The notes beneath the pieces were generated by a model. It did not search any database and had not been told where the DNA came from. It saw nothing but the letters and a program-made list of their open reading frames with translations. A program made the translations under genes and the position numbers. Below, one piece after another: positions 6,873-38,855 of a stretch of DNA of 42,738 nucleotides. How positions within the stretch are numbered: the first letter of the stretch is position 1; every line of letters begins with the position of its first letter. Origin of the DNA: a virus; IMG/VR virus record IMGVR_UViG_3300017917_002836, positions 1-42,738 of that record; one strand, given 5' to 3'.

Positions 6873-7637
6873 TTGAGAGACCCGCGAGAGACCGTCGTCG
6901 TCGCGTACCTGCGCCCCGCGCTGGTCCACGGCGCGTTCATGGAATGCCTGATGGACCTCGTGCAGTACGACGCGTCCCTGCACAGGCGCATCGCAGCGCC
7001 CGGAGGCCGACTGTCCTACCAGGCCGGATGCAACCTGAGTACCCCACGCAACGAGGTGGTGCGCCAGTTCCTGGCCTACGGTCAGGCGGACTGGCTGTGG
7101 ATGGTCGACTCGGACATGACGTTCGCGCCGGACGTCGTCGAGCGGCTGCTGGAGTACGCCGACCCGCAGAAGGCGCCGATCGTCGGGGGCCTGTGTTTCG
7201 GGTTCGACGGGCACGGCGACGTGCAGCCGACCCTGTACGGGCTGGTCGAGCATCCCGACCATCCGGGCAACCTGGAGCGGCTGCAGGTGGTCCGCTACCA
7301 CGAGTGGAAGCCCGATGCGATGTACCAGGTGGCCGGTACCGGCGCGGCCTGCCTGCTGATGCACCGGTCGGCGCTGGTGCGCATCCGCGACTTCGAGCGC
7401 CCGTCCGGTGAGGTCGGGTTCAACCCGGCCTACCCGTGGTTCCAGGAGTCCCAGCACGACGGCCGCCCGGTCGGCGAGGACATCACGTTCTGCTGGCGGG
7501 CGATCCAGGCCGGCCTCCCGGTCTACGTCAACACCGCCGTGCAGTGCGGCCACGTCAAGGACCGCGTGCTGACCATGGATGCCTACTTCCTGGCGAGGGG
7601 CCTGCTCTCGCCCACTCATCAGGGAGCGTCGTCATGA
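6873..7637 (+). CDS. GT-A fold glycosyltransferase
   Basis: A 254-residue enzyme with a family 2-like nucleotide-sugar transferase layout: a first beta strand (VVVAYLRPA), TPRN before the long helix, and the metal-binding DSD at 79-81 in WLWMVDSDMTF. An acceptor-side GEDITFCWRA lies near 205. TTG start with GGGAGACGA upstream. It is the first gene of a five-gene cassette inserted between capsid and head-tail connector genes, so the acceptor is probably a virion protein. The donor sugar and linkage cannot be read from sequence. Confidence 0.85.
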   Translation: MRDPRETVVVAYLRPALVHGAFMECLMDLVQYDASLHRRIAAPGGRLSYQAGCNLSTPRNEVVRQFLAYGQADWLWMVDSDMTFAPDVVERLLEYADPQKAPIVGGLCFGFDGHGDVQPTLYGLVEHPDHPGNLERLQVVRYHEWKPDAMYQVAGTGAACLLMHRSALVRIRDFERPSGEVGFNPAYPWFQESQHDGRPVGEDITFCWRAIQAGLPVYVNTAVQCGHVKDRVLTMDAYFLARGLLSPTHQGASS

Positions 7638-7882
7638 CCGCCATCTGCCGCATCACCGGTTTCCTCGGCTACACCACCGCCGACGACCGTCCGGCGCACC
7701 TGCGGGTCGAGGCCGGCCAGGCATTCGCCGACGACGACCAGGTCGTGGTGTCCCGCCCGGACGCGTTCGATGTCCAGCCGGGTCCGGCCACCGACAGCGC
7801 CCCCCAGGAGCAGGAGGCTGTCGAGCCCCGCCGCGGCACCGCCCGCCCCGCCACCAAGAGGTCGAGGGGTGGCAATGGCTGA
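7634..7882 (+). CDS. Small conserved-type phage protein
   Basis: An 82-residue protein whose ATG overlaps the preceding stop (ATGA). The N-terminus contains a beta-rich segment (MTAICRITGFLGYTT) and a DDDQVVVSRPDAFDV motif resembling small head proteins found after the capsid in other actinophages. The C-terminal third is Pro/Arg-rich and disordered. Its last 8 nt overlap the next gene. It may be a head accessory protein left inside the glycosylation cassette; function unknown. Confidence 0.65.
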   Translation: MTAICRITGFLGYTTADDRPAHLRVEAGQAFADDDQVVVSRPDAFDVQPGPATDSAPQEQEAVEPRRGTARPATKRSRGGNG

Positions 7883-9176
7883 CCTGGTCGTCATCGTCCC
7901 GTCCCGCGGCCGGCCGCAGGCCGCGCGGGAGCTGGCGCAGGCGTTCGTCGAGACCTGCACCGCGGATACGCGGCTGGTGTTCGCCGTCGACGACGACGAT
8001 CCGGACCTTCCCGGGTACCGGGAGGTGCTGTCCGAGTACCGCACCGCGCCGATCGCCGTCGAGGTGTGCATCGCCAACAACGACGACCACACGATGGTGT
8101 GCGCGCTCAACAAGGTCGCCCTGGCGCTGGTCAACATCTACCGCCCGGCCCCGTACGCGCTCGGTTTCCTCGGCGACGACCACCGTCCGCGCACCCGCGG
8201 TTGGGACCAGCGATACCTGGATGTCCTGCGGGAGCTGGGGACCGGCATCGTCTACGGCAACGACCTGCTGCAGGGCGACCGCCTACCGACGCAGGCCGCG
8301 ATGACGGCCGACATCGTCGCCGCGCTCGGATACATGGCGCCGCCTGGGCTGCGGCACATGTACGTGGACAACTTCTGGCGCGACGTCGGCCAGGCGGCCG
8401 GGTGCCTGCGGTACCTGCCGGACGTGATCGTCGAGCATCTGCACCCGGTGGCCGGCAAGGCCGCCGTGGATGAGGGCTACGCCCGGGTCAACGCCCCAGC
8501 CGTGTACGCCGCAGACGAGGCGGCGTACACGGTGTACCGCAGCACCCGGCTCGCCGCCGACGCCGCGGTGGTGGCCGGGCTGGCCGGCCGCCACCAGCAC
8601 GAGTGGCGGCTGTTCGAGCCCAACACCACGCCGGAGTGCACCACGCCAGAGTGGTACGCCGACCGTGAGCACGCCCCACACCTGGAGGACGGGCACCGCC
8701 CGCGACTGCAGGCCGCGGCCTCGCTGGTGGCGCAGGCGGCGATCACGCTCGACGCCGCCACGGTGGTCGACCTCGGGGCGGGTGACGGCGGCCTGCTGAG
8801 TCTGCTCGGGCCGGCCCTGACGGCATGGGGCTACGACCTGCAGCCGACCAACATCGCCGCCGCCGCGGGCCGCGGTGTCGACGTGCGGTACGGCGACGTG
8901 CTCGCCGACGACGTCGAATGGGGCCAGATCGCGGTGTGCACGGAGATGCTGGAGCATCTCGTGGACCCGCACGGCCTGGTGCGCCGGATCGGTGAGCGCG
9001 CCCAGGCGCTGGTGTGCTCGTCGCCGCGGGACGAACGGCCCGGTGCCGCGTACGAGCATCACTGCTGGGCGTGGGACATGCCCGGCTACCGGGCGATGGT
9101 CGAGGCGGGCGGCTGGAGCGTCATCCGGCACATGCCGGTGGGCCGGTTCCAGGTTCTGCTGGCAGTGCGGTCGTGA
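7875..9176 (+). CDS. Bifunctional glycosyltransferase-methyltransferase fusion
   Basis: A 433-residue two-domain protein. Residues 1-230 are a GT-A-like transferase (LVVIVPSRGRP start, GDDH at 100-103 as the likely metal site, EHLHPVAGKAAVDEGY near 187-202). Residues ~255-433 are a class I SAM methyltransferase with motif I VVDLGAGDGG at 297-306 and a conserved VCTEMLEHL at 354-362. The second domain resembles the separate methyltransferase encoded next. The fusion suggests that one protein both adds a sugar and methylates it, or is coupled to a methylation step. The start overlaps the upstream gene by 8 nt. Confidence 0.85.
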   Translation: MADLVVIVPSRGRPQAARELAQAFVETCTADTRLVFAVDDDDPDLPGYREVLSEYRTAPIAVEVCIANNDDHTMVCALNKVALALVNIYRPAPYALGFLGDDHRPRTRGWDQRYLDVLRELGTGIVYGNDLLQGDRLPTQAAMTADIVAALGYMAPPGLRHMYVDNFWRDVGQAAGCLRYLPDVIVEHLHPVAGKAAVDEGYARVNAPAVYAADEAAYTVYRSTRLAADAAVVAGLAGRHQHEWRLFEPNTTPECTTPEWYADREHAPHLEDGHRPRLQAAASLVAQAAITLDAATVVDLGAGDGGLLSLLGPALTAWGYDLQPTNIAAAAGRGVDVRYGDVLADDVEWGQIAVCTEMLEHLVDPHGLVRRIGERAQALVCSSPRDERPGAAYEHHCWAWDMPGYRAMVEAGGWSVIRHMPVGRFQVLLAVRS

Positions 9177-9727
9177 GGCGGGAGCGGCTTCGCCCGGCCT
9201 ACGGTCCGGGCGAGCTGGTGGCGCTGTACGCGGCCCCGTACGACCATCGCCGCTGGGTGGACCACATCCATCGGGTCAACGCGACGATCGCCGCCGGCCT
9301 GACGCTGCTCGACGGGGAGCTCGCCGGCACTGCGGCGGACCTGTCCTGTGGCGACGGGACGATCCTGCGGGCACTGCCGGCACAGCGGAGGATCTTCGGC
9401 GACCTGGTGTCCAGCTGCGACCTGGACCTGGTCGGTCCGATCGAGGCCACGATCGGCGAGATTGATCCGGTCGACCTGCTGGTGTGCACGGAGACGCTGG
9501 AGCACCTCGACGACCCGGACGGCGTGCTGCAGGCGATTGCAGAGAAGGCCCGAATGCTGCTGCTATCGACGCCGGTCGAGGCGTGGGGCGACGACAACCC
9601 GGAGCACTACTGGGCGTGGGATGCCGAGGAGGTCGAGGATCTGCTGACTGCGGCCGGGTTCACGGTGGTGGACTACCGGCCTCTGCCGCTGTGGTACCGG
9701 TTCGGCATCTGGGGATGTGTCCGGTGA
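9173..9727 (+). CDS. Class I SAM-dependent methyltransferase
   Basis: A 184-residue stand-alone methyltransferase: motif I ADLSCGDG at 55-62, VCTETLEHLDDPDGV at 104-118 and a WAWDAEEVEDLL helix. The VCTExLEH and xxHxWAWD blocks match the C-terminal domain of the upstream fusion, so the two domains are probably paralogues. Start and stop are coupled to both neighbours through GTGA overlaps. A sugar O-methyltransferase is the most likely role from context; methylation of a peptide or small molecule is possible. Confidence 0.82.
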   Translation: MRRERLRPAYGPGELVALYAAPYDHRRWVDHIHRVNATIAAGLTLLDGELAGTAADLSCGDGTILRALPAQRRIFGDLVSSCDLDLVGPIEATIGEIDPVDLLVCTETLEHLDDPDGVLQAIAEKARMLLLSTPVEAWGDDNPEHYWAWDAEEVEDLLTAAGFTVVDYRPLPLWYRFGIWGCVR

Positions 9728-10674
9728 GGGCCCTGGTCACCGGGTCGGCGGGGTTCGTCGGCCGGCACATGGTGGCCGAGCTGGTGGCGCGCGGCTGGGA
9801 CGTCGCCGGGGTCGACCTGCGGCAGTGGTCACCAGTGGCACCGCCGACCGCCGCCGGCGCGGGCCGGTACGCGCACGCCACCGGTGACATGCTCGACGGG
9901 GTCCGGCTTCCCGGCGTCGACACGTTCGATCTTGTGGCGCACTGCGCGTACCACGTCGGCGGCCGGGCCGGAATCGACGGTGAACCCCGCAACCTGGCCC
10001 ACAACCTGCAGCTCGACGCGGCCATGTTCGAATGGGCCGTCCGCACCGGGCAGCGGCGGGTCCTGTACTTCTCCAGCTCAGCTGCGTACCCGACCGTCCT
10101 GCAGACCGGCCACCCGCCCCGACAGCTCGCAGAGGACGATCTCGATCTTTGGGGAGTACGCCCAGATGCCCGGTACGGGTGGGCGAAGGTGACCGGCGAG
10201 CACCTCGCCCAGGCCGCCGCAGAGTCGGGCCTGCCGGTACACGTCGTCCGGCCGTTCTCCGGCTACGGTGAGAACCAGGACGACTGCTACCCGTTCCCCG
10301 CGATCGTGAGGCGCGCGCTGGCCGGCGATTTCACCGTGTGGGGACCACCAGGCCAATGCCGGGACTGGATCCACATCTCGGACGTTGTGCGCGGCGCCCT
10401 GGCCGTCGTCGACGCCGACGAGCGGCGGCCGGTCAACCTGTGCTCCGGCAGTCCGGTCGAGTTCGGCGTCCTCGCGCTCCGGGTCGCCGAGCTGGCCGCC
10501 CTGGTGTCGCCGGACAGGCCGTGGCCGGACGTCGAGTACCGCGAGGACCGGCCGACCGGGGTCATGTACCGGGTGGGCGATCCGGCCAGGATGCGCGAGC
10601 ACTACACCCCGGCCGTGCCCCTCGACGAGGGGATCCGGCGAGCGATCGAGCACGTCCGGGGAGGGCCGGCATGA
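9724..10674 (+). CDS. NAD-dependent sugar epimerase/dehydratase (extended SDR)
   Basis: A 316-residue extended short-chain dehydrogenase. The Rossmann motif TGSAGFVG lies at 6-13, the catalytic YGWAK (Tyr151, Lys155) is present, SSSAAYP near 117-123 supplies the Ser/Thr, and RDWIHISDVVRG lies at 213-224, as in GDP-fucose synthase and NDP-sugar epimerases. It would make the nucleotide sugar used by the adjacent transferases. It is coupled by GTGA upstream and ATGA downstream to the connector gene, so the cassette is transcribed with the virion genes. Confidence 0.88.
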   Translation: MRALVTGSAGFVGRHMVAELVARGWDVAGVDLRQWSPVAPPTAAGAGRYAHATGDMLDGVRLPGVDTFDLVAHCAYHVGGRAGIDGEPRNLAHNLQLDAAMFEWAVRTGQRRVLYFSSSAAYPTVLQTGHPPRQLAEDDLDLWGVRPDARYGWAKVTGEHLAQAAAESGLPVHVVRPFSGYGENQDDCYPFPAIVRRALAGDFTVWGPPGQCRDWIHISDVVRGALAVVDADERRPVNLCSGSPVEFGVLALRVAELAALVSPDRPWPDVEYREDRPTGVMYRVGDPARMREHYTPAVPLDEGIRRAIEHVRGGPA

Positions 10675-22899: not shown

Positions 22900-24900
22900 T
22901 TACGGCCGATGGACGTACGTACTACCATCGCCGCGGTCCAGGGCACCCACCTCGACCAGCTGGCGCAGCAGGTCCTGCCGGGTCTGACGGGCGACGTCAA
23001 CACCACGCTCCGCCAGCTGCCGGCCGATCTGACCTGACGTCAGACCGGCCGGGTACGCGTCGCGGACGATCCCGATGATCCGCTCTCTCGTGGTCTCCTG
23101 TCGGGTCTGCGTCGCCACGACGCCCGCCACCTGCTGCGGGTCCACGGTTGACGGGCGGTCGGCGACGATGCCGGTACCGAGGAGCAGCGCCTCACGGGCG
23201 CTGCCGGCCGGGGCCACGGTCGGCTGGTCAACCGCCGGCGGTGCAGCAACCGGCGCCGGCGCCGGCTCCTCGCCGCGCATCTCGGCCAGCTTCGGCGCGT
23301 ACCGGTCCCACCGTCCGGCGTACGCCCGGCCGGCGGCGACATCCCGCATCGTCGGATGCCGTGCGATGTCGATGTGGTCGCGCGGGTCGCGGCCACCGAG
23401 GACCGCGGACACGGTGAGCTGCGCCGCGACCTGCTGGGCACGTGCGTCGAGCCGCGGACGGTACCGCGCTGTGGCAACCGCGTGCCGTTCGAGGATCTCC
23501 GGCGGCACGTCCGCGGACCGGGCGAGCCGCGGGCGCTGACCGATATTCGTGATGATCCATCCGGATCCTCGGTGCCGCAGCCGGGTCGACGGCGGGGTGA
23601 CCCCGAGAATGTGCGCGTACTCGTCCTGCTCGGTCATCGTCAGACAGACCCTGATCGCTGCGACGATCCGCAGCCCTTTGTCGAGCAGGTCTGCGGTGCC
23701 GCGCAGCACGCTGATGATGGCCCGGCCGCCGACCTCGCGCCCGATCTGTGCGTACGAGGACAGTCCGTCGCGGATGGCCGCGCCGAGCAGGGCTGTCGCC
23801 TTGCCGATCTCGCCGCCCTCGTCGCCGATCACGACGATCGCGGGCAGCTCCTCGTCGAGCGGCAGCGTGTTGGTGCGATGCTCCCGCCGCCGGCGGATGG
23901 CCTCGGCAGAGGTCTTGCGGTCCCGTGCGACCGCCAGCGCTGTCGCGATCATGACGGCGCCCTCGTACTCGTCGCCCGCCACCCAGTCCACGACCGGCTG
24001 GGTGGCGTCGCCGCGGGCCCACGGCTCGACGAGCGGGACGGCCAGGCCGCCACCGTTGAGGTCGATGACCCAGACGAGGGCGTCCCGGCACCGGGCGAGG
24101 TGCATGATGACCCGCCGGAGCAGCGTGGTCTTGCCCATGTCCGGGGCGCCGCCGAGCACCATCGACAGCAGGCGCAGGCAGATCGTGACCGGGTTGCCGC
24201 GGGCGTCGTGCATCACCGCGAACTCGTCGTAGATTGATGCCGGGCCGGTTGGCTCCTCGACGGTCCGGGTCTCTGCGAGGCAGTCGCGGAGCATCACGTC
24301 GAGGACCGCCGCCCCCTGGTGCGGGCCCTCCTCGGCGCTCACGGTGCATCCGGGCGGCAGCTTCAGCGCTCCGGCGATGGCGTCACAGCGCAGGCTGAGC
24401 GCGTGCAGTGTCATCCCGTTGAGGTCGAGGTGGTACCTGACGCCGTCCCTCTTGCGGCCCGGCCAGGGCTCGATGTCCGTGAGCTCGATCTTGCCGCCCG
24501 CGGCCGGCTGGAGTAGCGACTCAACCTCCTGGATCCTCCGTGGCCGGGCCAGGTCGACACCGTCCGCGCGGGGCAGCAGCATCGACGCGACCGCGGCGAC
24601 AAGGGCGGAGACCGCCAGGTCGGCGACGGCCTCCCGGGTCCATCCGTGGGTGACGACCCACGATGCCCACAGTCCACATCCGGCCAGCCACGCGGCGAGA
24701 CCTGTGGCACGCCACCGGTGGGCACGGTTGCGGACGGCAACGAGCGTCAGGACACCGGCGACTGCCAGCCCGGCCGCGGCAGGCCACCACCAGGGCAGGG
24801 CTGCGATATCGGCGGCGAGCCCTACCGCGACCGCGGCGAGCATCGTCGCACCGACCACATACGGCGCGTTCCATCCGGGCTCGTGCTGATGCTGATGCAT
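22900..24900 (-). CDS. Membrane-anchored FtsK/TraB-like DNA translocase
   Basis: A 666-residue protein. Four membrane segments occupy about 14-34, 38-56, 67-84 and 92-110. The ATPase core has Walker A GAPDMGKTT (251-259) and Walker B-like IVVIGDEGGE (355-364). A Pro/Ala linker around 525-545 leads to a C-terminal winged-helix domain (RERIIGIVRDA...LTSGQIGRQLAERG) similar to the DNA-reading gamma domain. This is the layout of the septal translocases that move double-stranded DNA between mycelial cells in Streptomyces plasmids and AICEs. GAGGTGA precedes the ATG. It could instead help phage DNA segregation. Confidence 0.88.
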   Translation of the reverse strand: MHQHQHEPGWNAPYVVGATMLAAVAVGLAADIAALPWWWPAAAGLAVAGVLTLVAVRNRAHRWRATGLAAWLAGCGLWASWVVTHGWTREAVADLAVSALVAAVASMLLPRADGVDLARPRRIQEVESLLQPAAGGKIELTDIEPWPGRKRDGVRYHLDLNGMTLHALSLRCDAIAGALKLPPGCTVSAEEGPHQGAAVLDVMLRDCLAETRTVEEPTGPASIYDEFAVMHDARGNPVTICLRLLSMVLGGAPDMGKTTLLRRVIMHLARCRDALVWVIDLNGGGLAVPLVEPWARGDATQPVVDWVAGDEYEGAVMIATALAVARDRKTSAEAIRRRREHRTNTLPLDEELPAIVVIGDEGGEIGKATALLGAAIRDGLSSYAQIGREVGGRAIISVLRGTADLLDKGLRIVAAIRVCLTMTEQDEYAHILGVTPPSTRLRHRGSGWIITNIGQRPRLARSADVPPEILERHAVATARYRPRLDARAQQVAAQLTVSAVLGGRDPRDHIDIARHPTMRDVAAGRAYAGRWDRYAPKLAEMRGEEPAPAPVAAPPAVDQPTVAPAGSAREALLLGTGIVADRPSTVDPQQVAGVVATQTRQETTRERIIGIVRDAYPAGLTSGQIGRQLAERGVDVARQTRQDLLRQLVEVGALDRGDGSTYVHRP

Positions 24901-24925
24901 CTCGGGTCACCTCGCGGGTTGTTGG

Positions 24926-24957
24926 CCGGCCCCGGAGTGTCGACACTCCGGGGCCGG
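24926..24957. repeat. 32-bp perfect palindrome between SpdB-like and FtsK-like genes
   Basis: The left arm CCGGCCCCGGAGTGTC is followed by its exact complement with no loop; the centre is GTCGAC. It lies 25 bp before the translocase start and 13 bp after the upstream stop. It may be a terminator or attenuator that sets translocase levels, or a cruciform-type binding site. Confidence 0.75.
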
Positions 24958-24970
24958 TGGGGGGACTGGC

Positions 24971-26275
24971 TCAGGTGTCCGCCTGGCCGGCGGCGACGTC
25001 GGCACGCTTCTCTGCGTCAACGCCGCCCCGGCGACCGGTGAGCCGGGCCTCGTCGTCGGCGTGTGCTGCCCGGTACTTGCCGGGTAGGGCCTCAGCCTCG
25101 GCTGCGAGCCGTGCGAGCTTCGCCGAGTATGGGTTGGACAGGAGAGTGCCCAGCTTGGACTTGATCGACTCGATCTCGGCGACAAGGGCCTTGTCCGCGG
25201 GCAGCTCGGAGTCTGCCTGCGTGGCGAGCTGCTGCAACCCTCTGACCGTCGCGGCGAGCTGCTCTTCGTGCCTGCGGACCTCGGCTGCGTGCTCGCTGAG
25301 CGCCTCGGAGACTTTCGGTAGGTTCCGCCCAAATCGGAACAGTGACGCACCTTCGGTATACATGCTGTCTCCCTTCGGCCGCCCTGCCGGCGGCGGTTGT
25401 ATGAACGCGGCCTGCTGGTCGCGCGTGCTGGTCGCTGATGCCGGTTTGTCGCCGTCGCGGCCCGGTTTCGGTTTCCCATCGGCGGACCGGGCGCGCTTTC
25501 CGTCGGCAGCCTGGGCGCGCCTCTCGGCGCGGCGCCGCTGCCGCTCGGCATCGTCATCCATCGCAGCGTCGAGGCCCGCCCGACCTTGGTCCCACAGGGT
25601 CTTCCACCACGGCTGGCCGGCCTTCCCGCTCTTGCTCTTGGCGTTCTTGCCGCGACCGCCGCCGAACGGCCACCAGGAGCCGCCGGTACCCCAACCGCCT
25701 TTCAGCCCTTTTCCGCCGCCACCGGTGCCCCGGCCGCCGAGCAGCTTGCCGAGCGGTCCGCCTTTCCCGGTCCTGCCGCCGCCACCGCCGGCGCCAGCGG
25801 TCCTACCGGCACCCTTGCCCCGGCCGCCGAGCAGCTTGCCGAGTGCGCCCCGCCCGGGACTCCCTGACCCTCCACCTACGCCCTTGCCGCGACCGCCGCC
25901 GAGCAGGCGCGACAGCGGACCACCCTTGCCACCACCGGCCGGGCCGGTCCGGCTGGTCTTGCTGGACGTGCGGCTCGCGGTGCCGCCACGCCCGGGGAAG
26001 AGCGCGCCGAGGATCCGATCGAGCAGGCCGCCCTTACCTTTGCGGCGCCACGCGAGGATGCCGCACCACGCCACGATCCCGAGTGCGGCGTTGGCGACGA
26101 GCCACCACAGCCACCCGAGCAGGGCATACGCGGCAAGCTCGACAACGACCACCAGGAGCACGGTGCAGACGACGACCGGGGGGCGTTGCAGCCATGCCGG
26201 GGTACGTGGCCGGCGGCGCCGCGGCGCTGGCGGCTGGGTGCCGCCGGGCTGCTGCTGGGTGGTTGGCTGCGCCAT
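24971..26275 (-). CDS. SpdB-like Gly/Lys-rich membrane protein
   Basis: A 434-residue protein. It begins with a Pro/Arg-rich cytoplasmic tail, then two membrane segments (about 34-54 and 56-75). A long Gly/Lys/Arg region from ~80 to ~215 contains at least three copies of a unit like KGGPLGKLLGGRG. The C-terminal ~120 residues form a coiled coil (SEALSEHAAEVRRHEEQLAATVRGL). This is the style of the spread proteins that accompany TraB in actinomycete plasmids and help intramycelial DNA spread. GGAGGGAGC precedes the ATG. Confidence 0.72.
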   Translation of the reverse strand: MAQPTTQQQPGGTQPPAPRRRRPRTPAWLQRPPVVVCTVLLVVVVELAAYALLGWLWWLVANAALGIVAWCGILAWRRKGKGGLLDRILGALFPGRGGTASRTSSKTSRTGPAGGGKGGPLSRLLGGGRGKGVGGGSGSPGRGALGKLLGGRGKGAGRTAGAGGGGGRTGKGGPLGKLLGGRGTGGGGKGLKGGWGTGGSWWPFGGGRGKNAKSKSGKAGQPWWKTLWDQGRAGLDAAMDDDAERQRRRAERRAQAADGKRARSADGKPKPGRDGDKPASATSTRDQQAAFIQPPPAGRPKGDSMYTEGASLFRFGRNLPKVSEALSEHAAEVRRHEEQLAATVRGLQQLATQADSELPADKALVAEIESIKSKLGTLLSNPYSAKLARLAAEAEALPGKYRAAHADDEARLTGRRGGVDAEKRADVAAGQADT

Positions 26276-26304
26276 GATGCTCCCTCCGTCGTGACGCTGC
26301 GTAA

Positions 26305-26420
26305 TGTCAGGTGTCAGGTGTCAGCCCCCTGACTGTCAGGGGGCTGACACCTGCGTTGACCACGGCGAGACTCCGGGGGCGGTTATGGCGTCAGGGGGTG
26401 TCACCCCCTGACACCTGACA
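26305..26420. repeat. TGTCAGG tandem and inverted repeat cluster with 18-bp hairpin
   Basis: TGTCAGG occurs in tandem at 26305 and 26312 (third, TGTCAGC, at 26319); two inverse copies CCTGACA lie at 26407 and 26414. Between them CAGGTGTCAGCCCCCTGA (26315-26332) pairs perfectly with 26336-26353 over a 3-nt loop, and TCAGGGGGTG (26391-26400) pairs with CACCCCCTGA (26402-26411). The cluster overlaps the 3' end of a small leftward gene. It may be a terminator, but repeat number and symmetry resemble a cis-acting locus beside spd and tra genes. Confidence 0.75.
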
Positions 26421-26671
26421 CCGCTTCCGCTACTCGCAGTGACCGCGGCGGGGGGTGCTGCCCACGGGCTGACGCGTTCGGCGAGCAGCTCACCGAGGCG
26501 CTCACCGAACGCGAGCGCCTGCTCGTCGGGCAGGCCGAGGATGCGCGCCGCGCCGCATGTGCGAGTAATGGCGGCGGCAGCCTGAGCGGTCTCCTCGAGA
26601 TCCGTGAAGGTCACGGGCGTCACGCTTGCCAGCTCGACGTCGTCGCGCTGGGCGATGGCGGTAAGGGACAC
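26336..26671 (-). CDS. Small hypothetical protein in the transfer-like operon
   Basis: A 111-residue protein, GTG start with GAGGAG about 7 bp upstream. N-terminal region SLTAIAQRDDVELASVTPVTFTDL is followed by a helical LEETAQAAAAITRTCGAARI...ALAFGERLGELLAER; the C-terminal ~35 residues are low-complexity and coincide with the repeat cluster. Family not recognised. It lies between the DUF2637 and SpdB-like genes and was probably extended into the repeats. Confidence 0.6.
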   Translation of the reverse strand: MSLTAIAQRDDVELASVTPVTFTDLEETAQAAAAITRTCGAARILGLPDEQALAFGERLGELLAERVSPWAAPPAAVTASSGSGVRCQGVTPPDAITAPGVSPWSTQVSAP

Positions 26672-26737
26672 TGGGGGCTCCTCTTGTAGGTGGCGGGGGC
26701 GGCGGTCTTGTCGGGCGCGACGCCCCCGCATATCGAG

Positions 26738-27637
26738 TCAGTTGCTGGCGGCTACCGCTGTGCCGTTGATGCGGTCGTGCGTAGTGGCGGTCATCTGTCG
26801 AGCACGGCGGGCGGCGGGCAGGTACCGCTCGACGGTCCGCACCGAGCGGCCCGCCATCTCGGCGATCTGCTCGGCTGTCGCGTCGGGATGACGTCGATGA
26901 AGGTCTGCCACGATGTCGGCGGTCGACCGACGGTCCGCTAGGTCGCCATGCGTACCGGCGTGGCGGCCGCCAACCGGGTGATGCGCGCCGGCGCCTGACA
27001 GTGTCGGGACGGCCGCTAGCGCGACGGTAGGGCGCCACTGGGCTGTCGGAGCAACGGCGTGACTGGCGTCCTCTGCGGCGTCCGCCTCGTCGTCGCCGGA
27101 GGCCGTTTCGTCCCGTCGGTCCGCCACTTCCGCCACCGACACGGGCGGTGCCTGCGCTGCTAGAGCCATTTCCGGGCTGGCGGCGCCAACCGTGGCGGTC
27201 ACGCGGTCCGCCACGGCGACCGCCAGGACGACGAGCAGGTGCACCGACAGGGCGAGCATGACGGGCGGGATGGCAGATACCGCCATGGCAGCCCGCTCGC
27301 CGAGTGGGTGACCGCCACGTGCGTGCAGCGCGTTGCAGGCGATGGAGATCGCGGCGCCCGACAGGACGACGAGCCACGGGTACGCGGGGCGGCGGCCGAG
27401 CCGACGCAGGACGACGGCCGCCACGGTGGCGACCGACATTGCACCGTCGACCGACAGCGGCATGAGCCATGCCCATGACGGTCGGACGTGCGCGGCGACC
27501 GCCACGGCCCGGATCGCGTCGAAGCTGAGCGTGAATCCGGCGACCGCCACGGCGACGGTTCCGAGGCTCGCGACGGTCCCCGCGACGATCCCCAGGGTGG
27601 TCGTCGCGACCTGGTGCCAGTCGATGCGCGTGGCCAT
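26738..27637 (-). CDS. DUF2637 membrane protein with C-terminal HTH
   Basis: A 299-residue protein. About four membrane segments lie between 10 and 147 (TLGIVAGTVASLGTVAVAVAGF, WLMPLSVDGAMSVATVAAVVL, YPWLVVLSGAAISIA, VMLALSVHLLVVLAVAVA), with the LSFDAIR and PLSVDGAM features of DUF2637, a family common in Streptomyces plasmids and AICEs. The C-terminus (STADIVADLHRRHPDATAEQIAEMAGRSVRTVERYL) is a helix-turn-helix. ATG at 27637 has GAAGGGA upstream; the longer frame is rejected. It may couple membrane location to DNA binding in transfer or plasmid maintenance. Confidence 0.82.
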   Translation of the reverse strand: MATRIDWHQVATTTLGIVAGTVASLGTVAVAVAGFTLSFDAIRAVAVAAHVRPSWAWLMPLSVDGAMSVATVAAVVLRRLGRRPAYPWLVVLSGAAISIACNALHARGGHPLGERAAMAVSAIPPVMLALSVHLLVVLAVAVADRVTATVGAASPEMALAAQAPPVSVAEVADRRDETASGDDEADAAEDASHAVAPTAQWRPTVALAAVPTLSGAGAHHPVGGRHAGTHGDLADRRSTADIVADLHRRHPDATAEQIAEMAGRSVRTVERYLPAARRARQMTATTHDRINGTAVAASN

Positions 27638-27653
27638 ACCGATCCCTTCACTG

Positions 27654-27678
27654 TGTGGGTAATGTGGGCTATGTGGGT
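27654..27678. repeat. Three 9-bp-spaced TGTGGG repeats in divergent promoter region
   Basis: TGTGGGT (27654), TGTGGGC (27663) and TGTGGGT (27672) recur with an exact 9-bp period, 17-41 bp upstream of the DUF2637 start. They lie between that leftward gene and the rightward HTH gene. A regulator of one or both genes, possibly the HTH protein itself, may bind here. Confidence 0.6.
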
Positions 27679-27774
27679 TACACGATAGCGCGTCGAGCCT
27701 CGATCCAGCGAGTAGCCACGATGGTCTGCAACCATGGATCAATCCGTGGGGTACGTGGGCTGGGAGGACTATCG

Positions 27775-27984
27775 GTGGTCGGCAGTGGCAAGTGGCTCAC
27801 CACCGGCGAGGCAGCTGAGCGTCTCGGCACCAGCGACGAGACGATCCGTCGCTGGTGCGTTAGCGGCGAAGTGTTCGAGCACCGCGAGGTCATGAAGACC
27901 GCCGGGCGAGGTGGGCGCGGAGGGCACTGGCGCGTGCTCGCCGAGGCCGTCGAGCGGATCGTCGCCGAGCAGCTCGGGGAGTAG
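27775..27984 (+). CDS. Excisionase-like/MerR-type HTH protein
   Basis: A 69-residue protein, GTG start with GGGAGG at optimal spacing. KWLTTGEAAERLGTSDETIRRWCVSGEVFEHREV is a typical DNA-binding domain of excisionases and short MerR-like regulators; the tail (GHWRVLAEAVERIVAEQL) completes the winged helix. It lies about 1 kb from the integrase gene, divergent from the DUF2637 gene. It could be the phage Xis or the regulator of the transfer-like operon; sequence does not separate these. Confidence 0.72.
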   Translation: MVGSGKWLTTGEAAERLGTSDETIRRWCVSGEVFEHREVMKTAGRGGRGGHWRVLAEAVERIVAEQLGE

Positions 27985-28481: not shown

Positions 28482-28588
28482 TGTCGGATAGGTCCGAACC
28501 GGGCTCACAGTCCAGCCCTGCCAGGACAGATGGATGATCGCCGGCCGGGCTGAACGCTCGTTAGACAGGTCGGCGAAGGGGGTCAACC
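28482..28588. other. Short gap without a gene
   Basis: No gene or strong dyad is seen here. A GAAGGGGG ribosome site for the next ATG lies at its 3' end. Confidence 0.4.
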
Positions 28589-28978
28589 ATGTCCGCGGCG
28601 CTGCACATCTGCCCGACATCCGACCGCCGGCTGGCCGCGATGCTGGACTACTGCCGCGAGCGCGGCTGGCGGCCCGTCGCCGTCTCCGAGGACATCACCG
28701 CACTGGCAGCACTGGTAGAGGCCGGCATAGTCGACGTCGTCCTGACGCCCGTTTGGCGTCAGGACCTCGCCGCCGCCGTCCAGGCCGTGGGCGGCCGGCT
28801 GGAGGCGCTGCGGCGCCCCTCGCGACCGACTGCCAGTCATGACCTGACGGCCCTGGTCGACGCCCTGGTCGCCACCGGACAGCTCACGTCCGGTGGGGCT
28901 GCGCAGCTGCTCTCGGCGCCCGGCCCCGCAGCCTCGGCGCAACCACAGCCGTACCGCCGACCCCGTCGTGCCGCCTGA
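28589..28978 (+). CDS. Hypothetical protein, weakly resolvase-like
   Basis: A 129-residue protein with a good ribosome site. Residues ~5-60 (LHICPTSDRRLAAMLDYCRERGWRPVAV, LVEAGIVDVVLTPVWRQDL) recall the order of strands and helices of a serine-recombinase catalytic domain but lack the conserved catalytic Ser and Arg signature. The C-terminus is low-complexity. It ends 5 bp from the convergent integrase gene. May be a degenerate relative or an unrelated nucleotide-binding fold. Confidence 0.5.
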   Translation: MSAALHICPTSDRRLAAMLDYCRERGWRPVAVSEDITALAALVEAGIVDVVLTPVWRQDLAAAVQAVGGRLEALRRPSRPTASHDLTALVDALVATGQLTSGGAAQLLSAPGPAASAQPQPYRRPRRAA

Positions 28979-28983
28979 CCTGG

Positions 28984-29820
28984 TCATGGCAGCTCCACGT
29001 GGGCGACGTCCGGCAGAGCCGCCACCCATGTGGCGAGCTCGACGAGCGTGACCTCGGTGTAGACCTGGGTGGAGGTCAGGGACGCGTGACCGAGGGCCTC
29101 CTGGACATGTCGCGTGGAGGCGCCCGCCGCGAGCATCCGGGTGGCAAAACGGTGGCGGAGGCGGTGCAGGCCGCCGGTGACGCCGAGCCGGCTGATCCGG
29201 TACCGGGCGGTGCGCGAGATCCAGTCGGCGTCATCTCGGCCACCGGTGGAGCGCATGACGCTGCCGGCCGGCAGGTCCGCCACCTCTCGCCAGACCGTCG
29301 GATGCATCGGCACGAGCCTGGTTTTCCCGCCCTTTCCGTGCACGAGCAGCGCCTGGTCGGTGATGTCGGCGCCGCAGAGTCGGGCGATCTCGCAGCACCG
29401 CAGTCCTGCCCACGCGGCGAGCACCGCGGCGAGCAGGCACCACCCGGTCGTGCCGCCAATGATCGTGTGCAGCTCGTGCTCGCCGACCGGATGCGGTATG
29501 CCCCGGGGCACGGATGGGGCATCGAACCCGGTCATCGGGTTCCAGTCGAGGTACCCGCCGTCGACTGCCCAGCGGAAGAACCCTGTGATCCGGGCGTGGT
29601 AGGCGCCCCTGGTGGCCTGCGACCACCAGGGTTGGCCGTTGCTGCCACGGCGGCCGAACAGCGTCACGAGCTCCGCCTGGCTGGCGCACTCCAGGCCGAG
29701 GCTCAGCTCCGGTGAGCGGTCCGCGGCGCGGAGGCTGCTCTCGATGCTGCGTAGGGAGCCGCGCCCGAGGGCGCGCAGGTATGCCACGTAGGTGCCGATG
29801 AGATCGTCGTCGTTACCCAT
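28984..29820 (-). CDS. int: Tyrosine recombinase (phage integrase)
   Basis: A 278-residue XerC/D-size integrase. Residues 1-95 form the core-binding SAM-like domain; the catalytic set is complete: Arg141 (AGLRCCEIARL), Lys163/166 (GKGGKTR), His219 and Arg222 (HRLRHRFATRM), His245 (LGHASL) and Tyr254 (TQVYTEV). No N-terminal arm-binding domain. It starts 6 nt after the stop of the repressor gene, with no ribosome site and a hairpin just upstream, so translation is probably coupled. It integrates the phage genome and, with a Xis, excises it. Confidence 0.95.
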   Translation of the reverse strand: MGNDDDLIGTYVAYLRALGRGSLRSIESSLRAADRSPELSLGLECASQAELVTLFGRRGSNGQPWWSQATRGAYHARITGFFRWAVDGGYLDWNPMTGFDAPSVPRGIPHPVGEHELHTIIGGTTGWCLLAAVLAAWAGLRCCEIARLCGADITDQALLVHGKGGKTRLVPMHPTVWREVADLPAGSVMRSTGGRDDADWISRTARYRISRLGVTGGLHRLRHRFATRMLAAGASTRHVQEALGHASLTSTQVYTEVTLVELATWVAALPDVAHVELP

Positions 29821-29821
29821 A

Positions 29822-29854
29822 GCCGATCATGCCGCTACCGTCTGCATGATCGGC
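29822..29854. other. 11-bp inverted repeat at repressor/integrase junction, candidate attP core or translational hairpin
   Basis: GCCGATCATGC (29822-29832) and GCATGATCGGC (29844-29854) are perfect inverted copies around an 11-bp spacer. It covers the last codons and stop of the repressor gene and reaches to within 1 bp of the integrase ATG. Short integrases without an arm domain bind 11-13-bp inverted core arms, though the usual spacer is 6-8 bp. A stem that blocks int translation is the alternative. Confidence 0.5.
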
Positions 29855-30249
29855 ATCGACGGATGGCACCGCGCGGCCCGGCGCGGTCGCCGGTGCGGAT
29901 CCATCCGGACGGCTGAGCTGTCGCCCGACGGAGGTCGTCCGAACGTACCGTCGCCATCGGTACTGGCGGCCGGATCGCGATACCGGGCCGTAACGCGACT
30001 GGCTTGACGGACATCCTCAGGCAGCAGATCGACCACTGCGACGCGAAGCACGCCGGCGATACGCTCAAGGTCATCGGTGTCGAAAGCCGTCTCCCCGGAG
30101 AGTCGGCGCCAGACGTAGGTCTGGCTCTTACCCAATGCCCTAGCCAGGGCGCTCGCACTCATCCGCCGTCGCGCCAGAGTTGCGCGGATCTCCTCGGCGA
30201 CCGCCTCACTGAGGGCGGTCCGCTCACCAGACTGGTCCGTCATGCTCAT
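29827..30249 (-). CDS. Xre-family immunity repressor with ssrA-like C-terminus
   Basis: A 140-residue protein. Residues ~12-77 are a lambda repressor-type HTH (RRRMSASALARALGKSQTYVWRRLSGE). About 33 of 64 residues are identical to the Cro-like protein encoded divergently. Residues ~80-140 are an Arg/Pro/Asp-rich tail ending MQTVAA, which resembles ssrA-type degradation tags. The integrase gene follows on the same strand. This is the gene order of integration-dependent immunity in mycobacteriophages, where integration cuts off the tag. ATG at 30249 or 30243. Confidence 0.85.
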   Translation of the reverse strand: MSMTDQSGERTALSEAVAEEIRATLARRRMSASALARALGKSQTYVWRRLSGETAFDTDDLERIAGVLRVAVVDLLPEDVRQASRVTARYRDPAASTDGDGTFGRPPSGDSSAVRMDPHRRPRRAARCHPSMPIMQTVAA

Positions 30250-30261
30250 GGCGGCATTGTT

Positions 30262-30276
30262 TCCCGCTGAGCGTGT
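30262..30276. promoter_or_regulatory. Operator O-L near repressor start
   Basis: CGCTGAGCGTGT at 30265-30276 matches the operator consensus CGCTAGGCGTGT in 10 of 12 positions. It lies 13-27 bp upstream of the repressor ATG, where binding would repress leftward expression. Centre bases differ (TGA for TAG), suggesting a weaker site. Confidence 0.6.
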
Positions 30277-30288
30277 GATTGCAACAGT

Positions 30289-30301
30289 ATCCGCAACGGA
30301 T
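30289..30301. promoter_or_regulatory. Central dyad ATCCG-N3-CGGAT
   Basis: ATCCG (30289-30293) and CGGAT (30297-30301) form a dyad between the left and right operators. It differs from the Xre operator sequence, so it may be bound by another regulator or be part of the leftward promoter region. Confidence 0.35.
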
Positions 30302-30320
30302 GTGCCAGATTGGCTCTCCA

Positions 30321-30338
30321 GTTACTCGCTAGGCGTGT
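30321..30338. promoter_or_regulatory. Operator O-R1
   Basis: GTTACTCGCTAGGCGTGT, with internal symmetry ACnCGC-TAG-GCGnGT. It is repeated with one change 23 bp to the right. It ends at the first base of the rightward -35 box, so bound protein could block or contact RNA polymerase. Confidence 0.75.
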
Positions 30339-30366
30339 TGACTGTTACGCGCTAGGCGTGTAGAAA
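30338..30366 (+). promoter_or_regulatory. Rightward Cro-gene promoter, leaderless
   Basis: TTGACT (30338-30343), a 17-bp spacer and TAGAAA (30361-30366) make a consensus-like promoter. The ATG at 30374 lies 7 bp past the -10 box, where transcription should start, and no ribosome site is present. The whole spacer is filled by the second right operator. Confidence 0.78.
30344..30361. promoter_or_regulatory. Operator O-R2 between -35 and -10 boxes
   Basis: GTTACGCGCTAGGCGTGT, 17 of 18 bases as in O-R1. It lies exactly between the rightward -35 and -10 boxes, so occupation by the repressor or Cro-like protein should shut off rightward early transcription. Confidence 0.78.
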
Positions 30367-30373
30367 CGTCGAC

Positions 30374-30631
30374 ATGGGCAGGAACGCTTCTCTCGGCGAA
30401 ACATCAAATCGGCAGACGTCGCTGACGGCAGCCGTCGCCGCTGAGGTAAGGGCGGAGATGGGGCGCCGGCGGGTCACTCAGGCGGAACTCGCTGGCGCGC
30501 TCGGTCGGACCCAGCAGTTCGTGAGTCGCCGGGTATCCGGCGAGGTCGCAATGGATACCGACGATATCGATCACATCGCCAGCCATCTCGGAATCAACGC
30601 ACTCGACCTGCTGAGGCGAGCCGCCGCCTGA
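30374..30631 (+). CDS. Cro-like Xre-family regulator
   Basis: An 85-residue HTH protein (RRRVTQAELAGALGRTQQFVSRRVSGEVAMDTDD). About half the HTH-region residues are shared with the divergent repressor, so the pair arose by duplication and should see the same operators. It starts on a leaderless message and ends shortly after the HTH domain (DLLRRAAA), without the tail seen in the repressor. It is the first gene of the early rightward operon and is expected to favour lytic growth. Confidence 0.85.
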   Translation: MGRNASLGETSNRQTSLTAAVAAEVRAEMGRRRVTQAELAGALGRTQQFVSRRVSGEVAMDTDDIDHIASHLGINALDLLRRAAA

Positions 30632-33761: not shown

Positions 33762-34141
33762 CGGCCGCGGCTGCGGTGTGGTCCGCACCGGGCGGCAGTA
33801 GACATGCTCCGGCGGCATCCCAGGTCGCCGCTGGAGCCCAGGAGCCGGAGGGGACGGCCGGCTCCACGGTGGTGGGGGGCCCGCATGGGCACAGCGGGTC
33901 CCCCACCACTGCGACGTCCGTCGCGGCGGGCGGTGCCGCGGCGGACCGTGGGGGCCCCGGCAGGGGTGGCGGGGTCCCCACCGCAGACGCCGCGACCACC
34001 GGGCCGGCGGGGGTTGCAGCCCCTGCCGGTGCCACACCGGCGGTCGCGGCTGCGGCCGGGACGCATTCTCCCGGACCGGCCGTAGCGGAGGGGCCGGTTG
34101 GTCCGGGCCCCTCCACCCCCGCAGCCGGGGGCGCGTCATGA
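33758..34141 (+). CDS. Low-complexity Ala/Gly/Pro-rich protein (doubtful coding)
   Basis: A 127-residue frame, GTGA-coupled upstream and ATGA-coupled downstream, which supports translation. But the product is almost only Ala, Gly, Pro, Thr and Val (GAQEPEGTAGSTVVGGPHG, ATPAVAAAAGTHSPG) with no predicted fold, and its DNA holds six strong hairpins. It may be a disordered linker-like protein or a translated structured spacer. Confidence 0.45.
   Translation: MTAAAAVWSAPGGSRHAPAASQVAAGAQEPEGTAGSTVVGGPHGHSGSPTTATSVAAGGAAADRGGPGRGGGVPTADAATTGPAGVAAPAGATPAVAAAAGTHSPGPAVAEGPVGPGPSTPAAGGAS
33841..34131. repeat. Array of six strong hairpins
   Basis: Stems: 33841-33848/33858-33865 (8 bp); 33869-33884/33894-33909 (16 bp, one G-U, 9-nt loop); 33948-33958/33971-33981 (11 bp, one G-U); 34004-34013/34020-34029 (10 bp, one G-U); 34087-34095/34106-34114 (9 bp); 34116-34121/34126-34131 (6 bp). 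The second and third share GTGGGGG-CCC type arms. Such density exceeds what GC content alone seems to give in neighbouring genes. Possible roles: RNA processing, attenuation or a single-strand origin. Confidence 0.6.
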
Positions 34142-34869
34142 TGCCGGCGGTTGGACGCCGTGCTGCGCGCCAGCAGCAGGAGTGGCGGCAGGCCGGCCGG
34201 ACAGCCGTCCGGATGCTCCGGGCGACCGCCGTGGACCTGGCCGCCGAGCGGGCGGCCCACGCGGCGACCCGTGAGCAGCTCGCCGAGGCGCTGGCGGCCC
34301 TGGCCAGTGCGCGGGCCGACCTGGACGTCGACCCGCTCACCGGCCTGTACACCCGCCGGTGGCTGACAGCGGTCTGGGGCAGCAGCCGACCGCCTGGTCT
34401 GCTGCTGCTCGACCTGGACGGCTTCAAGGCGGTCAACGACCGGTACGGGCACGCCGCCGGCGACGAGGTTCTGGCCACCACCGGCAGGCGCCTGGCGGCG
34501 CAGGACCGCTCTACCGCGGTCCGGCTGCACGGCGACGAGTTCGTCGTGCTGCTGCACGACCGGGCCGATGCCGGTCCGCGACATATCGCCGCCGCCGCAG
34601 CGTGGGTCGCCGGCCTGGTCGCGGCGCCGGTCGCGCTCGCAGGTGAGCGCCTGGTGACCGTCACCGCCTCGGCCGGTGCCGTCATGGTCACCGCTGACGA
34701 CCAGCTGGCGGAGGTGCTGGCGCGGGCCGACCTGGCGATGTACGCGGCCAAGCGGTCCTCGGGCCGGCCGGTCGTGTGGACGGCGAACCTGGAGCCGCCC
34801 GCAGGCGCCGTCTGCGCCCGCCGCGGGGTGAGGGATGCACGGAGAGGAGACGGTAGTAGTGCTGCATGA
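34138..34869 (+). CDS. GGDEF-domain protein (diguanylate cyclase type)
   Basis: A 243-residue protein. A basic, helical coiled-coil start (~1-62, ATREQLAEALAALASARADL) leads into a full GGDEF domain: DPLTGLYTRRW (65-75), LLDLDGFKAVNDRYGHAAGD (90-109), signature HGDEF (131-135) and AMYAAKRSSG near 205. The first Gly of GGDEF is His. The RxxD inhibitory site five residues before it is absent (QDRS). It could make or sense c-di-GMP in the cytoplasm. No membrane segment. Start/stop coupled to both neighbours. Confidence 0.9.
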   Translation: MMPAVGRRAARQQQEWRQAGRTAVRMLRATAVDLAAERAAHAATREQLAEALAALASARADLDVDPLTGLYTRRWLTAVWGSSRPPGLLLLDLDGFKAVNDRYGHAAGDEVLATTGRRLAAQDRSTAVRLHGDEFVVLLHDRADAGPRHIAAAAAWVAGLVAAPVALAGERLVTVTASAGAVMVTADDQLAEVLARADLAMYAAKRSSGRPVVWTANLEPPAGAVCARRGVRDARRGDGSSAA

Positions 34870-37230: not shown

Positions 37231-38385
37231 GTGACCTACACCGATGCGCGAACGATAACGGAACCCTCCGACACATCGCGACCCCGCGACCACCCGGACG
37301 GGGGACATTCACGCGACTCACTCACGGACGGCGGCCGTGAGCTGCGCCCCGCCGGACGGTACGAGTGGGAGCAGATCATCAGGCGCGCCCGGCTCGGCGA
37401 CCTCATCAAACCCAGCATTCGACGGGGCAAGGATGGACGCCCAACCAAAGGCGGCATGGCCGGGCTGAGCGTAACTGGCATCGCCCTGTGTCTGGCGACC
37501 TTCGCCAACGACAAGGGCGCCGAGGTGTTTCCGGGCGACGCTACCGTCGCGATCTGCATGGAGACCACCATCAAGGCGGTCGCGGCGGTCCGTAGGGCGC
37601 TGCTCGACCTCGGCATGATCGAACTCGTCCGGGGTAGTCGGGGCCGGTGTGGCGACGAGTACCGGCTGACGCTGCCGAGCGACCTGCTCGACCGCCTGGA
37701 CGTGCTGACGCCGGCGCAGCTCGAACTCGCAGCCGCGCGGCTGCGCGACAGGGCACGTGGACGCGACCGCTGGGGTGGTCCGGCGGACCACCCCAAGCGC
37801 ACTGACGGAGATGACAGCGTGGCTCGGGTAGGCCCGCCGGACCACCCCAAGAATGTGGACATAGGGGACCGGGTAGGTCCGGCGGACCACCCCAAAAACG
37901 CGACCGACTTGGGCCTGGGGTGGTCCGGCGGACCCGCAGAAACCGGCTTGGGGTGGTCCGCCGGACCCACGTGGGGTGGTCCGCCGGACCCGCGTACCGA
38001 CCACTACCGCACCAGTACTACTACCGACCACCCTGAGATAGATCTCCGTACGGCCGTAACTGGTCCGCGCGAGCCGGCCGCCGCAACAAAAGATCAAGAT
38101 TCCATCGGTGAGTTACGGGTGGGCGGCACGGCTGCGCCGGCCGCCGAGCGCTGCCCGGACCATCCGGACATGCGCGGCGGCGAACGGGACGACGGGACCC
38201 CGCGCTGCCCGGTGTGCCGCGCCGCGGCCGTGCCGCGCGGCGTCCCGGTGTGGCTGCAGGACCAGCCGGCCCGTGACCGTCCAGCCGCGGGCCCGGCACT
38301 CGCCCCGGCTGTCAACGGCACCGCCGCACCGAGCAGGGGCGCCCATCGTCGCACGGTCTTCACGCTCATCCAGGGCGGTGGCTGA
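37231..38385 (+). CDS. Replication initiator with internal origin (lambda O-like)
   Basis: A 384-residue protein. Residues ~45-150 form a winged-helix DNA-binding domain (WEQIIRRARLGDLIKPSIRRG, GLSVTGIALCLATFAND, VRRALLDLGMIELVRGSRGR) of the type in phage and plasmid initiators. Residues ~180-255 are repeats of GGPADHPK-like peptides encoded by DNA iterons. The C-terminal part has a Cys cluster (ERCPDHPDM, CPVCR) and Pro/Ala linkers. An initiator gene that contains its own iterons matches the lambda O/ori plan. No helicase or polymerase gene is seen, so the host replisome would be recruited. Confidence 0.75.
   Translation: MTYTDARTITEPSDTSRPRDHPDGGHSRDSLTDGGRELRPAGRYEWEQIIRRARLGDLIKPSIRRGKDGRPTKGGMAGLSVTGIALCLATFANDKGAEVFPGDATVAICMETTIKAVAAVRRALLDLGMIELVRGSRGRCGDEYRLTLPSDLLDRLDVLTPAQLELAAARLRDRARGRDRWGGPADHPKRTDGDDSVARVGPPDHPKNVDIGDRVGPADHPKNATDLGLGWSGGPAETGLGWSAGPTWGGPPDPRTDHYRTSTTTDHPEIDLRTAVTGPREPAAATKDQDSIGELRVGGTAAPAAERCPDHPDMRGGERDDGTPRCPVCRAAAVPRGVPVWLQDQPARDRPAAGPALAPAVNGTAAPSRGAHRRTVFTLIQGGG
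37771..37995. other. Putative origin of replication: six iterons
   Basis: The 12-bp core TGGGGTGGTCCG or its complement occurs six times. Complement forms: 37784-37795, 37838-37849, 37883-37894. Direct forms: 37771-37782, 37916-37927, 37949-37960, 37972-37983. The first site is a perfect 12+1+12 dyad; the others have one intact and one decayed arm. Repeats point toward the middle from both sides. Downstream, 38030-38115 is less GC-rich (GAGATAGATCTCC, CAACAAAAGATCAAGATTCC) and could melt first. Confidence 0.75.
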
Positions 38386-38855
38386 TGGGCATCACCTGGC
38401 CGACCCGACCGCTGACCGACCGTGAGCTGCAGGTGCTCACCGGCGCCGCCAACGGCCGGAAGAACCGGGAGATCGGCGACGAGCTATACGTCGCCGAGGA
38501 CACGATCAAGACCAACCTTCGGCACATCAACGCCGTCCTCGGCACCCGCGACCGTGCCCACGCGGTCGCCGTCGCGCTCACCACGGGCCTGCTGCCGGCG
38601 ACCGCGGTACGGATCCCGGGCGCCCGCGCCCGCGTCATGCAGCAGCGTGAGCAGCAGCTGCTCACGCTGCTGCTGAGGTGCCTCGGGCAGGAGGTGTGCC
38701 TGCGCCTGGTCGGCGGCCAGCTCGTGCCCTGCGAGGTCGCCGCGATCATGCCCGGCGACGCGGTCGGCGTCTTCGTGGCGCCGCTGCGGGAGCAGCGCCG
38801 CTACCGGCTCTGCGAGATCGACTCCATCATGCGAACGGAGACCGTCAATGCCTGA
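38385..38855 (+). CDS. LuxR-type HTH regulator
   Basis: A 156-residue protein. Residues ~8-66 are a LuxR C-terminal HTH (LTDRELQVLTGAANGRKNREIG, VAEDTIKTNLRHINAVLGTRDR), with the usual TxxE and hydrophobic core residues. It lacks any receiver or sensor domain. The C-terminal ~85 residues (LLRCLGQEVCLRLVGGQLVPCEVAAIMPGD) form an unrecognised beta-rich domain with Cys. Coupled to the initiator gene (TGATG). It may time early or late transcription. Confidence 0.82.
   Translation: MGITWPTRPLTDRELQVLTGAANGRKNREIGDELYVAEDTIKTNLRHINAVLGTRDRAHAVAVALTTGLLPATAVRIPGARARVMQQREQQLLTLLLRCLGQEVCLRLVGGQLVPCEVAAIMPGDAVGVFVAPLREQRRYRLCEIDSIMRTETVNA

Follow-up and report, generated by a model that had tools for sequence, protein, structure and literature searches.

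A repressor-integrase cassette in an IMG/VR virus genome is probably another case of integration-dependent immunity

We propose with moderate confidence that the cassette located at 28984-30631 of the window, by which we mean the whole stretch of DNA analysed here, a 42,738-base IMG/VR virus record, works by integration-dependent immunity (IDI), with the attachment site attP in a putative position. The repressor and integrase genes would be read from one leftward transcript, and the phage form of the repressor, with its disordered tail and ClpXP-type -VAA end, would be degraded. The arm-less integrase would then recombine a core lying in that tail with a chromosomal site of non-tRNA type, an event that would remove the end of the tail, stabilise the repressor and part int from its promoter.

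The layout of the cassette is that of known IDI phages. A 140-residue Xre-type immunity repressor (29827-30249, minus strand) is followed after a gap of only 6 bp (29821-29826) by the co-directional gene for a tyrosine integrase (Int, 278 residues, 28984-29820, minus strand), and a gene for an 85-residue Cro-like HTH protein (30374-30631, plus strand) diverges from the pair. Judged by 48% identity over the HTH and assignment to the same PHROG, the Cro-like protein is a paralogue of the repressor, and the first-pass annotation, which had described two adjacent genes on one strand with a divergent paralogue, is confirmed in this respect. On its other side int is separated by 5 bp (28979-28983) from the convergent open reading frame 28589-28978; this frame matches no known family, yet its composition is coding-like. 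Gene order, the 6-bp spacing and the boxing in of int by 5 and 6 bp all favour IDI. BPs/Angel (cluster G) and Brujita (cluster I) likewise carry the repressor directly before a tyrosine integrase, a divergent Cro and a repressor end of the -AA/-AS type, and the mycobacteriophage Charlie (cluster N) has the same IDI architecture as BPs and Brujita.

The remainder of the window contains siphovirus genes (terminase, portal, protease, capsid, connector and tail), which start at 752; its GC content is about 70% and the relatives of its terminase are mostly actinophages, and no phages near-identical to it were found. Between the capsid and connector genes lie genes for a glycosyltransferase, a glycosyltransferase/methyltransferase-like protein and a nucleotide-sugar epimerase (6873-10674, plus strand), which are kept beside the capsid gene in the related contigs L086-L093 with up to 69% identity and perhaps serve capsid glycosylation. 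An FtsK/SpoIIIE-like ATPase (phrog_31069) and a DUF2637 protein are encoded together at 22900-27742 (minus strand), in a block that lies between virion genes and int and is possibly a module that conjugative elements also have. Between genes 24971-26275 and 26336-26731, a perfect inverted repeat of 18 bp around a loop of 3 bp (26315-26353) would form a strong hairpin and is a probable terminator or regulatory site. Finally, a 243-residue protein with a GGDEF (diguanylate cyclase) domain (34138-34869, plus strand; Pfam E 4.5e-27, signature HGDEF) is an unusual phage cargo, and a sigma-factor-like protein is encoded at 38385-38855 on the plus strand (phrog_3282, E 1.8e-9).

The integrase provides the second line of evidence. 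Int matches Pfam Phage_integrase, has the conserved catalytic residues R141, K163, H219/R222, H245 and Y254, and appears to be arm-less, as its length and alignment would leave no room in 278 residues for an N-terminal arm-binding domain. The solved structure closest to it is 5vfz (E 2.7e-26), the chain of which proved on checking to be Brujita gp33, with a match that spans the full 318 residues, and its best phage matches are the integrases of the Gordonia phages Walrus, TillyBobJoe and YungMoney, followed by those of cluster G mycobacteriophages. Both Brujita gp33 and the cluster G integrases are homologous to Int. By length, by its relation to Brujita gp33 and by its position in the tree it appears to be an arm-less tyrosine integrase akin to those of IDI phages. 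The searched collections yielded no close relative of Int; closer cassettes were found by scans with the repressor HTH and with Int. In the tree Int forms a clade (support 96/97) with L104, L194, L203, L011, L191, L192, L193 and L198, all from environmental viral contigs, and this clade lies among IDI-type integrases, although the root was set at the midpoint and the nesting is thus not proven. Seven of these eight other members encode a long-tailed HTH repressor within 80 bp of int (within 20 bp in six of them); L194 has a gap of about 80 bp, L011 one of 940 bp. Kinship to the Brujita, Gordonia and cluster G integrases, the place of the clade and the company of long-tailed repressors each argue for IDI.

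The repressor itself is recognised by its HTH (Pfam HTH_3, E 9.5e-6; PHROG 4583 'transcriptional repressor', E 1.3e-14), and the translation of its reading frame agrees with the 140 residues and the MQTVAA end that had been noted at first sight, the C-terminus reading MPIMQTVAA. In the AlphaFold model the fold ends near residue 89, and residues 90-140 are of low confidence (pLDDT about 46-60); the unstructured tail that had been claimed for it is thus supported by predicted disorder, but its length is about 50 residues and not some 60. Searched against phages and plasmids, this tail gave chance-level matches only. The repressor-cro gap contains two 15-bp near-palindromes, ACTCGCTAGGCGTGT and ACGCGCTAGGCGTGT (30324-30361, plus strand), at a distance of 23 bp from each other; they have no other strong copies in the window and are candidate operators.

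But is the -VAA end of this protein a tag? It resembles an ssrA-like or ClpXP-type tag and may act as a degron. On its own it is weak evidence, since -AA/-AS C-termini also occur in 8/122 background genes, among them 5/56 genes of the window, a rate of 5-9%. Against this background, -AA or -AS ends are found in 20 of 21 related repressors that contain a tRNA-derived segment, which together with the predicted disorder of the tail favours IDI. Such ends also occur in eight of ten other relatives that have no tRNA segment and lie outside the window's clade. Within the clade the tags are patchy: -VAA, -YAA, -PAA and -VAS are found in 4/9 members (P 0.004 against background), and L191, L192, L193, L198 and L203 have none. 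Int, which ends in VELP, carries no ssrA-like tag either, and in this it differs from the integrases of the BPs/Brujita-type IDI phages. The untagged Int and the missing tags in the clade speak against IDI. The rival reading is conventional lysogeny, in which repressor and int would merely form one operon, attP would lie elsewhere, for example at 28482-28588 or in the repressor-cro gap at 30250-30373, the intergenic gaps nearest to int, and -VAA would be either an unremarkable C-terminus or a permanent signal for instability, uncoupled from integration. We regard this reading as rather unlikely: the background rate of such ends in the window and their patchiness in the clade are in its favour, whereas the high proportion of -AA/-AS ends in tRNA-lacking relatives outside the clade and the kinship of Int to IDI-type integrases are not.

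Where attP lies bears on both readings. Because the gaps on either side of int measure only 5 and 6 bp, an attP beside int must fall within a gene, and this absence of intergenic room counts against conventional lysogeny. The repressors encoded beside related integrases contain a peptide derived from a tRNA 3' end (SPLTGSNRRPLAYKV, RPEGFEPPTF, GESNPRPIHYQ) in addition to their -AA/-AS end, and in Brujita (GESNPRPIHYQ) and Angel (RPEGFEPPTF) the tRNA 3' end in the repressor tail is attP; the repressor of contig L031 ends in TFC and looks like a truncated prophage form. A structural T-arm scan (TTCRA loop), which as a control found the tRNA fragment at all tRNA-type loci except L009, yielded a single match in the whole window, within the portal gene, and none near the cassette, nor did it find a T-arm at any cassette locus of the clade. 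The window therefore probably has no tRNA-type attP, which makes a site of the BPs or Brujita kind unlikely. Rfam gave no match on the cassette, but since the tRNA fragments of the control phages escaped it as well, it constitutes no test. By hand, the start of the T-arm in the tRNA-type relatives was placed 58-171 nt before the repressor stop, and attP would by analogy be expected at 29887-30000 (minus strand) in the window; no core was identified inside this interval. A search of 84,980 genomes of bacteria and archaea gave no close relative for either Int or the capsid protein, so neither host nor attB was found. The lack of an attP/attB pair and of a T-arm in the cassette counts against IDI, and the want of a core in the repressor suits conventional lysogeny. 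An excisionase-like HTH_17 gene close by (27655-27984) may point the same way, given that IDI systems have been reported to be without a recombination directionality factor (2022 review, PMC9262239). According to the same review, all IDI phages use tRNA attB sites. The IDI switch of the first-pass annotation is consequently supported in part, by layout and by integrase kinship with Brujita and cluster G, but not by an attP of the known tRNA type near the cassette. In a different group of integrases, L083 (2331-2400) and L085 (2541-2620) have CCGTCTACCAAATGGTATTCGCC in common at the repressor C-terminus and differ in their repressor N-termini, and CCGTCTACCAAATGGTATTCGCC is possibly the attachment core of that group.

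Comparison within the clade offers a hint of a core that does not derive from a tRNA. Over tail and int, L192, L193 and L198 have their longest common identical stretch, 50 bp (L198 4404-4453), in the last repressor codons; a further identical run of 39 bp follows the HTH. In the 50-bp block 16/16 codons are identical, compared with a codon identity of 69% at conserved residues of int, and shuffled codon columns attain 50 bp in 53/5000 trials. This suggests a constraint on the DNA, such as an attP inside the repressor of these three phages, and in that regard favours IDI; it could also reflect a constraint from coding or from regulation of int, and since the window has no equivalent of the block and shares no such block with the three, the finding also weighs on the other side. 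The tail of the L198 repressor, too, had chance-level matches only among phages and plasmids. L192 and L198 differ in the DNA of their HTH (62% identity) yet share tail (93%) and int (90%), and an attP in the tail would link the HTH to a conserved module of tail plus int. From this we derive a more speculative and rather improbable extension, namely that a clade of uncultured actinophages with arm-less integrases uses a non-tRNA core in the repressor tail and that attP also serves as a joint at which repressor specificities are swapped.

The 11-bp perfect inverted repeat that had been noted at the repressor's 3' end does exist, with arms at 29822-29832 and 29844-29854 around a spacer of 11 bp, and it covers the last repressor codons, the stop and the gap before int. 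An arm of 11 bp was reached in 2/300 dinucleotide shuffles of the repressor region. The window holds 20 perfect repeats of such size (spacer 3-30), which corresponds to about 0.2 expected per 430 bp, and none of the relatives examined has an equivalent; for these reasons the repeat is weak evidence for an attachment core. Moreover, it occupies the extreme 3' end of the gene and thus lies 3' of the interval in which attP is expected by analogy, the tRNA segment of the tRNA-type relatives beginning about 60-170 nt before the stop. In IMG/VR the centre of the palindrome was found at two loci, both in unrelated phages, and its arms matched three loci. We rejected an intrinsic terminator, as the terminator scan did not find the repeat and no T run follows it.

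The position of the repeat suits an mRNA hairpin as well as it suits an attachment core. Such a hairpin, coupling translation of int to that of the repressor, would concern the repeat only and fit either view of attP. The fold of the transcript does show the 11-bp stem, whose 3' arm contains the repressor stop, and the int start comes shortly past the stem, 6 nt from that stop; the stretch as a whole, however, folds no better than shuffles (z -1.06) and the hairpin is absent from the relatives examined, so that we see in it a possibility somewhat on the doubtful side. Alternatively, 29822-29854 can be read as arms of 13 bp, 12/13 matching, around 7 bp, and an arm-less recombinase might resolve a plasmid-like prophage at this 13-7-13 palindrome, in the manner of Cre/lox or dif. 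The geometry of the site, the short integrase and the FtsK/SpoIIIE-like and DUF2637 genes downstream would be in keeping with such a role. Yet the palindrome is missing from the relatives examined, some 20 repeats like it occur in the window, and a ParA or RepA family was recognised in none of the proteins scanned, which makes this explanation very improbable.

If IDI is the right reading of the cassette, its departures from the best known systems have precedents. IDI with a non-tRNA attB is already published for Mycobacterium abscessus prophages, in which four such sites (attB-8, -12, -13 and -14) were described; attP lies within the repressor, the cores measure 3-25 bp, and some repressors or integrases have no -AA tag (2021 survey, PMC8092301). 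The window is akin to these prophages in its untagged Int, a likeness drawn from their published description; they differ from it in having mapped attL and attR. In the Gordonia phages Bowser and Schwabeltier the IDI layout is present and attP was not found (PMC4982277), and with Nyceirae (PMC5559632) they resemble the window in having an IDI-like repressor and integrase and no attP that could be located; in them repressor and integrase bear -AA tags. The integrases of Bowser and Nyceirae fall outside the window's clade, and they are tagged whereas that of the window is not. Taken together, the cassette fits the range of published IDI exceptions and is probably another case of IDI, with a putative attP in the repressor. 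If true, it would add to the exceptions published for M. abscessus and not found a new kind. IDI would then also cover environmental phages that form a clade of their own and have no tRNA-derived attP, the switch by truncation of the repressor would need no tRNA site, and arm-less integrases of small size would be at hand for new target sites.
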